DNA of 64,000 nt from Phycisphaerales bacterium. GTDB taxonomy: Bacteria > Planctomycetota > UBA1135 > UBA2386. The notes under the pieces are model-generated. The model saw only the letters and a program-made list of their open reading frames with translations. It was not told the origin of the DNA and searched no databases. The DNA lies in NCBI GenBank assembly GCA_020247305.1, contig JADCJE010000008.1:1-64000 (forward strand), in the 5' to 3' direction. Shown here in pieces: positions 19,516-22,588 of the stretch. Both the position numbers and the translations under genes were made by a program. The stretch's first letter is position 1. The number at the start of each line of letters is the position of its first letter.

Positions 19516-22125
19516 GTGCGCCTCACCGTCGAGAACGGCCCGCTCGCGGGCACTACCGTCGCGCTCGACCGCGACCAGTCCACCACGATCGGCAGCGCAC
19601 CCGAATGCGGCCTCAACGTCCGCGAGCCGGGCGTCGCGCCGCAGCAGGCGGTGGTCAAGGCGCTCAAGGACCAGGGCTTCGGCGTCAAGGCGCTCGCGCC
19701 CGGCGTGCGCCTCAACGGCCGCGAGGTCGAAGTGGCCGCGCTCGCCGAGGGCGACGTGCTGGAGGTCGGCACGACGCGCATCGTGTTCGGCGCCCCGCAG
19801 GCGGCGGCGGCGACCGGGCTGCCCGAGATCCCCGGCTACCGCATCCTCGGCCAGCTCGGCCGCGGCGGCATGGGCATGGTCTACCGCGCCGAGCAGACGA
19901 GCCTGCACCGGCAGGTCGCGCTCAAGGTGCTCAACCGCGAACTGACCAAGGACCCGGCCTTCGTCGGCAAGTTCGTCGCCGAGGCGCGCGCCGCCGCCAA
20001 GCTGCAGCACCCCAACGTCGTGCAGGTCTTCGACGTCGCCAACGCCGGCGAGACCTATTTCTACGCGATGGAGCTGATGCACGACGGCTCGCTGGAAGGC
20101 TGGCTGAAGAAGAACGGCGCCATGCCGGAGGAACGCGCGCTGCAGGTCGTCGCCGACGCCGCGGCCGGCCTCGCGTACGCCGAGTCGCTGCGCCTCGTGC
20201 ACCGCGACATCAAGCCCGACAACCTGATGCTCGACCAGCACGGCACGGTCAAGATCGTCGACCTCGGCCTCGCCGGGGCGACGTCGGAGGCCGAGGAGAA
20301 GGCCGTCGGCACACCGCACTTCATGGCGCCCGAGCAGGTGCTCAAGCAGGCCGTCGACCACCGCACCGACCTCTACGCGCTCGGCTGCACGTTCTATCGG
20401 CTCGTCACCGGCAAGACGCCGTTCCGCGGCCAGTCGGTCAAGGACATCCTGCGCGCGCAGGTCAAGGACGAGGCCGAGCCGGCCAGCAAGGCCAACCCGC
20501 AGGTCAGCGCCGAGACGACGGCCATCATCCAGAAGCTGATGGCGAAGGAGCCGTCCGCGCGCTTCCAGTCGGCGAACGAACTGCTGGAGGCGGTGCAGAC
20601 GCTGCTGCAACCGCCGGCCAAGAAGGGCCTGTGGATCGGCCTCGCCGCCGCCGCCGCGCTCGTCGCGGGCGGCGCCATCTGGTGGGCCGTCACCAAGCCC
20701 GCGGAAACGCAGATCATCGAGAAGAAGGTCAAGGTCTACGACGACCCGGAGAAGCAGCAGTTCGCCGACGAGATCAAGGCGCTGAAGGCCTCCCAGCGCG
20801 GCGACAAGGCGACGATCGCGCTGCTGACCGCCCGCCTCGGCGGCGCCGCCGGCGAAGACCTCGCCAAGGCGCTCGACGAGGTCGCGGCCGCCCACGCCGG
20901 CACGCCGGCCGCCGACGAAGCCAAGGAACGCAGCGCCAAGCTGCGCGCCGACCTCGCCGCCGCGGCGCAGCGCAGCGAGCAGGAGCAGCGGCGGGTCGGC
21001 GAGCAGGCAGCAGCGCTGCGCGCCGCGACTGCGGCGGCGCGGCAGGCCGGCGACTTCGCCGGCGCGCTGCGCGCGATCGACGCGCCCTCGCCGGCGGACC
21101 TCGCCAGCGTGGACGCCTGGAAGCGGAGCCAGCAGGAACTGCGCGACGAAGTGCTCGCCGAGGCGCGCCAGCGCCTGCGCGGCCTCGTCGAAGCGACCGA
21201 AGCAGCGGCCAAGGGCGCCGACGAGGCCGCCGTGGCGGCCGCCGCCGACGCGCTCGGCAAGGCGCTGGCCGCCGGTGAGGCGTGGCCGAAGGCGATGGCC
21301 GGCGAACTCGACGACGCGCGCACGCGCCTCGCCAACGCCGGCAAGGCGGTCGCGACGCTAGTGACCGCGCGCACCGGCGCCGTCTGGCAGCAGTACCGCA
21401 GCGCCCTGGCGGCGCCGCAGGGGCTGCGCACTGCGCTCGGGCGGCGCGACTTCGCCGCCGCGGCCAAGGTGGCGCAGGACTTCGTCGCCGGCGCGCCGTC
21501 GACGCCGGCCGCGCAGCGCGCCGGCGGCCTCGCCGACGCGCTCGCCCGCGCCGACCAGTTCGCGCAGGCGCTCGACAAGGCGATCGCCGCCGGCAGCGTG
21601 ACGATGGCAGCCCCAGCGCCGGGCAACAGCGGGCCGGCGACGCTGCTCGCGACGCGCTGGGACCGCGCCGGCAACCAGTTGTTCGCGGTCGACCCGGCGC
21701 GGCGGTCGGGCAAGGAGCAGGCGATCGCGCTGACGGCGCCGGAACCGTGGCTCGCCGCCGCCGATCAGGTGTCCGGCGCCGAAGCCGGCGCGCGCGAGTG
21801 CTTCCTCGGCTTCGTGCTGCTGTCGCTGCACGCCGACGCGGCGCAGGCCTTCCTCGGCCGGCTGCAGGCCGGCGACGACGCTTCGGGCACGGGCAGCAAC
21901 GGCTACCCGCTCGGCGCGAACGCGTTCGAGAGCCTGCTGCGCCGCGTGCCGGAGGCGCAGGCGGCGCCGTGGGCGCTGGAACTGCGCCACGAACTGCAGG
22001 CGGGCATGCGGCTCGCCGCCGGCCTGCGCGCGCTGTCCGAGCGCCGCAACGTCGCCGCGGCCGGCCACCTCGACAAGCTGCTCGCGGAGCACCCGCACAG
22101 CCTCGTCGTCGCCGTGTTGCCGTGA
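19516..22125 (+). CDS. Membrane Ser/Thr protein kinase with N-terminal FHA-like domain
   Basis: 869-residue PknB-type kinase. Residues 1-95 look like an FHA domain but lack the conserved Gly-Arg and Ser-x-x-His of phosphothreonine binding. The kinase domain runs from about 112 to 365: GRGGMGMVYRAE (P-loop), VALKVL (ATP Lys), HRDIKPDN (catalytic Asp231), DLGLAG in place of DFG, and MAPEQ. A single membrane segment (LWIGLAAAAALVAGGAIWWAV) follows near 373-393. The outer part is about 470 residues of Ala-rich helix, probably coiled coil, without a recognisable sensor fold. GTG start. The stop overlaps the GTG of yggU by 3 nt, so yggU was once co-translated. Confidence 0.9.
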   Translation: MRLTVENGPLAGTTVALDRDQSTTIGSAPECGLNVREPGVAPQQAVVKALKDQGFGVKALAPGVRLNGREVEVAALAEGDVLEVGTTRIVFGAPQAAAATGLPEIPGYRILGQLGRGGMGMVYRAEQTSLHRQVALKVLNRELTKDPAFVGKFVAEARAAAKLQHPNVVQVFDVANAGETYFYAMELMHDGSLEGWLKKNGAMPEERALQVVADAAAGLAYAESLRLVHRDIKPDNLMLDQHGTVKIVDLGLAGATSEAEEKAVGTPHFMAPEQVLKQAVDHRTDLYALGCTFYRLVTGKTPFRGQSVKDILRAQVKDEAEPASKANPQVSAETTAIIQKLMAKEPSARFQSANELLEAVQTLLQPPAKKGLWIGLAAAAALVAGGAIWWAVTKPAETQIIEKKVKVYDDPEKQQFADEIKALKASQRGDKATIALLTARLGGAAGEDLAKALDEVAAAHAGTPAADEAKERSAKLRADLAAAAQRSEQEQRRVGEQAAALRAATAAARQAGDFAGALRAIDAPSPADLASVDAWKRSQQELRDEVLAEARQRLRGLVEATEAAAKGADEAAVAAAADALGKALAAGEAWPKAMAGELDDARTRLANAGKAVATLVTARTGAVWQQYRSALAAPQGLRTALGRRDFAAAAKVAQDFVAGAPSTPAAQRAGGLADALARADQFAQALDKAIAAGSVTMAAPAPGNSGPATLLATRWDRAGNQLFAVDPARRSGKEQAIALTAPEPWLAAADQVSGAEAGARECFLGFVLLSLHADAAQAFLGRLQAGDDASGTGSNGYPLGANAFESLLRRVPEAQAAPWALELRHELQAGMRLAAGLRALSERRNVAAAGHLDKLLAEHPHSLVVAVLP

Positions 22126-22588
22126 CGGTCGTGGCAGTGGCGACGGCGGGCGGTGTGCGCCTAGGAGTCTGCGTCACGAAAGGCCACGCCGCCCGGCACG
22201 CGTCTTCGCGCCCGGGGACTCGCGGCCGATCCTCGGCGAATCCACCGATTCGCCTGCGGTCGTCCGCTTCGCCCCGGACACAAATCCACGCGCCGGATCG
22301 GGGCGCGTTTCGTGACGCAGACTCCTCGCGGTCAAGGCCGTGCCCGGCGCGTCCCGGAGCCGCATCGTCGACGCGCTCGGCGAGGCGTTGAAGGTGCAGG
22401 TCGCCGCGCCGCCGGAGGACGGCAAGGCCAACGCCGCGCTCTGCGCGCTGCTGGCGACCGCGTTCGGCGTGCCGCTGCACGCGGTGCAGGTGGTCGGCGG
22501 GGCGAGCCGCGCGCGCAAGCTGGTGGCGATCGCGGGCGTCGACGTCGCCGGCGCGACGGCCGTGCTGGCGGCGTTGGGCGCTGGCTGA
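22122..22588 (+). pseudogene. yggU: yggU / DUF167 gene interrupted by a 164-bp palindromic insertion
   Basis: The 5' piece (22122-22162) begins with GTG overlapping the kinase stop and encodes VTVVAVATAGGVR plus two bases of the next codon. The 3' piece (22327-22588) encodes the rest: AVKAVPGASRSRI, LKVQVAAPPEDGKANAAL and VVGGASRARK, the DUF167 signature. Joining 22162 directly to 22327 gives 303 nt, exactly 101 codons with no stop. In the present sequence the insert shifts the frame by 2 and brings in TGA at 22313 in the 3' frame. Read from 22122, translation runs through the insert and ends out of frame at 22391. An 82-residue fragment could restart at GTG 22340 but would lack the first beta-strand. 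Confidence 0.88.
22163..22326. mobile_element. 164-bp palindromic MITE-like element inserted in yggU
   Basis: The ends are a perfect 19-bp inverted repeat, AGGAGTCTGCGTCACGAAA (22163-22181) and its complement (22308-22326). The centre is a perfect hairpin, GGCGAATC (22235-22242), CACC, GATTCGCC (22247-22254). Both share one symmetry axis at 22244.5. Most positions between them also pair, including runs at 22093-22097 equivalents such as 22193-22197 with 22292-22296, 22212-22217 with 22272-22277, and 22222-22225 with 22264-22267. There is no reading frame for a transposase. Removing exactly 164 bp repairs yggU, so no target duplication is needed. A mobile non-autonomous element is the best reading; a processed RNA insert is a remote alternative. 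Confidence 0.85.

Follow-up and report, generated by a model that had tools for sequence, protein, structure and literature searches.

A 164-bp inverted repeat splitting a DUF167 gene in a Phycisphaerales bacterium is very probably a MITE of an IS1182-family insertion sequence

Introduction

The window analysed here, a stretch of 64,000 nucleotides from the contig JADCJE010000008.1 of a Phycisphaerales bacterium, carries a 164-bp inverted repeat close behind a serine/threonine protein kinase gene. What is this repeat, and how did it come to lie there? The original prediction offered two answers, a new family of non-autonomous transposons moved in trans, or a REP-like element moved by a RAYT transposase. 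Our analysis favours the first. With a probability of about 0.93, we regard the repeat as a MITE of an IS1182-family insertion sequence (IS), moved by the transposase of that IS to a CTAG target, and here splitting a DUF167 gene.

Results

The inverted repeat and its boundaries

The repeat occupies positions 22163–22326 and has one single axis, at the coordinates originally given. Its ends, AGGAGTCTGCGTCACGAAA and the reverse complement, pair perfectly over 19 bp, and an 8-bp hairpin lies at the axis, as had been described; an ungapped alignment of the window copy to its own reverse complement gives 69% matching positions. With up to three mismatches allowed, the expected number of matches to the 19-mer in the 64-kb window is 0.01; two were found, at the two ends of the repeat. 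The predicted long imperfect RNA hairpin was also confirmed. The 164 bp fold with −101.5 kcal/mol, compared to −69.6 ± 4.3 kcal/mol for 200 shuffled sequences (z = −7.45). In the Rfam search no family exceeded its gathering score, the best match reaching 22.5 bits of the 168 required.

The element proper is slightly shorter than the repeat. It runs from GAGTC to GACTC (positions 22165–22324), is 160 bp in length and contains no transposase gene; the AG and CT at the outer edges of the 164 bp are part of the 4-bp flanks. The left terminal inverted repeat, GAGTCTGCGTCACGAA, is located on the plus strand at 22165–22180 and pairs with the right terminal inverted repeat on the minus strand at 22309–22324. 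The left target-site duplication (22161–22164) reads CTAG, the usual flank of the family, and the right one (22325–22328) reads CTCG, which is one mutation apart from CTAG. Both 4-mers keep the codons Leu-Ala at this site.

Dispersed copies in the genome

The genome assembly of the organism (G000) is 4.93 Mb in size, consists of 219 contigs and is incomplete. The 164-bp sequence has homologs at no fewer than 40 dispersed places in it; they are 79–96% identical and lie in unrelated flanks. With up to three mismatches, the 19-bp end occurs 128 times (60 + 68), compared to zero for the reversed control. Thus the varied copies called for by the original prediction exist, and the 19-mer is not confined to this locus. 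Alignment of 22 full-length copies gave a 160-bp consensus, GAGTCTGCGTCACGGAAGGCC...GCGTCCCGTGACGCAGACTC, to which the window copy is 94% identical; the closest pair among the aligned copies is 98.75% identical. Elements with the same ends fall into size classes of 160, 176 and 55 bp. Behind one full copy, tandem partial end copies of 16–17 bp (CGTGGCGCAGGCTCCC, CGTGGCGCAGAGTCCT) were observed (L024:1664-1729, contig C214).

Truncation at one end is common among the copies. As such copies keep one intact CTAG end, we considered one-ended (retro- or rolling-circle) insertion; because the intact end may be the left or the right one, and a DDE insertion sequence has the same ends, later deletion is the simpler explanation.

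The CTAG target

For 32 copies of this genome, we compared the 64 flanking 4-mers with the 4-mers adjoining them on the outside. CTAG is exact in 33 of the 64 flanks, and 56 are within one mismatch of it; among the outward neighbours it occurs in 2 of 64. In Poly30, another planctomycete bearing similar elements, CTAG is present on both sides of 13 of 15 copies. The motif itself is scarce: trinucleotide composition predicts 44 occurrences in the window, and five are present, a depletion of about nine-fold. The statement that the element leaves no target duplication is therefore wrong for the family; it arose because AG and CT of the flanks had been counted as element and because one base has mutated.

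The two flanks of one copy are frequently unlike each other, in about half or more of the full-length copies, and the duplication must therefore be read through mutation. Decay of the flanks at a divergence of ∼9% fits this pattern. Any single copy may have used another target, for example CTCG or CAAG. The differing flanks also raised the idea of Tn916-like coupling sequences, one flank coming from the donor and one from the target. This idea was rejected, as most of the deviating flanks differ from CTAG by a single step and the window copy and the copies L005 and L058 fit a CTAG target.

At L011, L008, L005, L050, L053, L236 and other loci of this genome, the TAG within the CTAG target is apparently also the stop codon of an adjacent gene. 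By raw count in a crude composition test, 9 of the 32 copies lie just behind stop codons. In Poly30 (G062, CP036434), another dispersed repeat with the end CCTGCATTATTCACGAGTTTGC repeatedly adjoins the CTAG of the MITEs, sometimes on both sides (e.g. L101, L095, L104 and L105); by appearance, this is a further insertion sequence using the same CTAG sites.

Empty sites and the split DUF167 gene

Upstream of the element, outside it, lies the protein kinase gene (19516–22125, plus strand; 869 residues; Pfam PF00069, 185 bits). Downstream, positions 22340–22585 match Pfam PF02594 (DUF167) with 73 bits over profile positions 10–75 of 76. The profile match and the alignment with congeners together define a DUF167 (YggU/COG1872) gene on the plus strand at 22125–22588, split by the insertion; its start presumably lies between 22125 and 22160. 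As the downstream piece matches the domain from profile position 10, the insertion has separated the first part of the domain from the reading frame.

In six of seven congener genomes, the kinase and DUF167 genes are directly joined without the element. When the flanks of the window copy are joined, GTGCGC-CT(A/C)G-CGGTC, they align directly to GTGCGC-TTCG-CGGTC in the congener G006, and the others are similar; at the place of the right flank, the empty sites read TTCG or a related 4-mer. The DUF167 reading frame is unbroken in the congeners. Here it is broken near its start by a net insertion of 164 bp, i.e. 160 bp of element plus 4 bp of duplication, which shifts the frame. Loss of the DUF167 protein is the probable consequence.

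Two further sites were informative. For the copy L005, the empty site in G006 already reads CTAG. The copy L058 is flanked by CAAG and CTCG; assuming a CTAG target would restore the Pro-Ser codons of G006, which is consistent with such a target. Judged by sequence, the flanks of both the window copy and L058 would give the reading frame of the congeners if the target was CTAG.

An IS1182 insertion sequence with the same ends

The variant end GAGTCTGCGTCACGGATCCCC recurs at contig edges, and tracing its occurrences led to an intact insertion sequence of 1564 bp (G000:C48:4970-6533, corresponding to L225:1971-3534) with CTAG on both sides, the autonomous partner that the original prediction had proposed to look for. 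It starts with GAGTCTGCGTCACGGA and ends with the reverse complement of GAGTCTGCGCCACGGA. Its transposase is 437 residues in length and matches the NCBIfam model NF033551 (IS1182) with 373 bits, above the cut-off of 270, as well as PF01609 (DDE_Tnp_1).

The ends of the MITEs are identical to those of this IS over typically 14–18 bp. The first 14 bp of the left repeat of the window copy equal the left end of the IS, and the 16-bp ends common to both kinds of element read GAGTCTGCG(T/C)CACG(G/A)A, with the T/C variation at position 10 in IS ends and MITE ends alike. Beyond the ends, the two share only short, weak stretches (best 29 bp at 83%, E = 0.006); thus simple internal deletion of this IS does not explain the MITE.

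Further left ends of the IS were found on C26, C61 and C146, and right ends on C59, C112 and C129, all exactly at contig edges and 99–100% identical. Three left and three right ends in such positions indicate about three further recent IS copies that were collapsed by assembly. Two IS copies lie directly beside a MITE, which fits the idea that the flanks of MITEs are a main supply of CTAG in this genome.

Related elements in other Planctomycetota

An IS1182 element with such ends and CTAG flanks is also present in G011, with a transposase 77% identical, and in G061, with a transposase 45–53% identical in pieces. G061 and G063 contain matching short elements or further ends; G063 is apparently the same assembly as G011, since its transposase match has identical coordinates. 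In G021, Poly30 and G006, MITEs with similar ends are present and no IS1182 element with these ends was found; two of these assemblies, G006 and G021, are incomplete, and loss of the IS is possible. A long candidate between two ends in Poly30 (L093) was rejected, its large reading frame being, as judged by eye, not transposase-like. The IMG/VR contig IMGVR_UViG_3300049043_000052, classed as viral, also carries a full-length copy between two CTAG flanks (L092:2922-3087). This copy is followed by phage-like genes (RecE-like exonuclease, repressor), and the contig is possibly host DNA adjoining a prophage.

Discussion

Taken together, the dispersed copies, the empty sites and the autonomous IS with the same ends and the same target uphold the view of the repeat as a non-autonomous transposon (MITE), and we infer that the transposase of the IS moves it in trans. 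In the proposed mechanism, the IS1182 DDE transposase would be supplied from elsewhere in the cell, recognise the 16-bp ends common to IS and MITE and insert the MITE into CTAG, the stagger being 4 bp; CTAG would then be duplicated by repair. The window copy would have landed in this way near the start of the DUF167 gene and shifted its frame. The long palindrome presumably has no further role.

The other answer of the original prediction, a REP- or REPIN-type element transposed in single-stranded form by a RAYT (a Y1 HUH transposase), found no support and is very improbable. The element is indeed palindromic, numerous and often intergenic, half-units also occur alone in Poly30, and the genome holds five weak Y1 matches, one of them ∼1 kb from a copy. 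However, Y1 matches are not distributed like the element: there is none in the element-bearing G006, with dozens of element matches, or in G007 (56% complete), whereas the congeners G001, G002, G004 and G005, in which the element was not found, have 4–14. The element carries neither a GTAG nor a CGTC tag, its ends match a DDE insertion sequence, and its flanks behave as a 4-bp CTAG duplication. The GTAG- and CGTC-tagged REP repeats (PMC3733652) are likewise palindromic and dispersed, and have been reported from Planctomycetes too; different from the 160-bp unit described here, they are far shorter (20–40 bp), carry other tags and are tied to RAYTs.

Still less credit is due to a non-mobile palindrome that serves the host, for instance as a transcription terminator, an RNA-processing site or a regulatory RNA. 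The strong RNA fold and the copies just behind stop codons (the 9 of 32 in the crude test) would suit such a role. However, TAG stops can supply the CTAG target in a CTAG-poor genome, which would account for those positions; moreover, the window copy breaks up a conserved gene whose counterparts in congeners are intact, the examined sites are empty in congeners, and no Rfam family matches at threshold. Equally improbable is insertion of an IS1182-family element by stem-loop replacement without target duplication, as in the family member IS1272, which replaces target inverted repeats (PMC5678879): although the two IS copies directly beside a MITE could recall such a process, the empty sites show plain addition with no stem-loop lost, the congeners aligning directly across the window site, and CTAG stands on both sides of the intact IS and of the 13 Poly30 copies.

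Several known systems are comparable. IS1272 shares the transposase family and the 16-bp inverted repeats with the IS described here, and differs in that the present element adds sequence at CTAG. ISPse1, an autonomous IS1182-family element of another host, is 1653 bp in size with 16-bp inverted repeats and a 4-bp duplication (PMC3281130), comparable to the 1564 bp, the 16-bp ends and the 4-bp CTAG of the present IS. MITEs derived from IS1182 elements have been described before. MITEPye1 of Paracoccus yeei, whose partner is the IS1182-family ISPye18 (PMC11578231), is likewise short, gene-free, mostly intergenic and flanked by direct repeats, has 18-bp ends matching IS1182-family ends and is predicted to form a long stem-loop; it belongs to another phylum and has 1–3 copies per chromosome, compared to at least 40 here. 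In Methanosarcina acetivorans, the MITEs of the IS1182-family element ISMac2 are 160 bp in size, number 14 copies and have a direct repeat of 4 and long inverted repeats (table of PMC3852290), and so are of nearly the same size and layout; their host is archaeal, and the likeness concerns their published description. Thus the claim of a new family holds at the level of sequence, whereas the kind of element is already known. We found no description of this MITE family in Planctomycetota in the open-access literature, and a text search with the end sequence likewise returned nothing relevant.

A wider reading is tentative, and we think it rather doubtful. The MITEs of this genus, G021, Poly30 and G061 might form one superfamily over distant Planctomycetota, with conserved CTAG-GAGTCTGCG-type ends, largely unrelated interiors and TAG stop codons as safe landing sites. 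TAG stops would serve in this way because these GC-rich genomes have hardly any CTAG in other places and, if the reading is true, insertion would usually leave the upstream protein intact.

For the organism, the DUF167 gene of this genome presumably represents a natural knock-out, and the CTAG target rule explains where the copies sit. For the Planctomycetota, the results name a repeat family that annotation might otherwise take for structured RNA, terminators or broken genes, and tie it to a likely transposase. To the few IS1182-derived MITEs in the literature they add a high-copy case in which IS, MITE, target and empty sites are all at hand.
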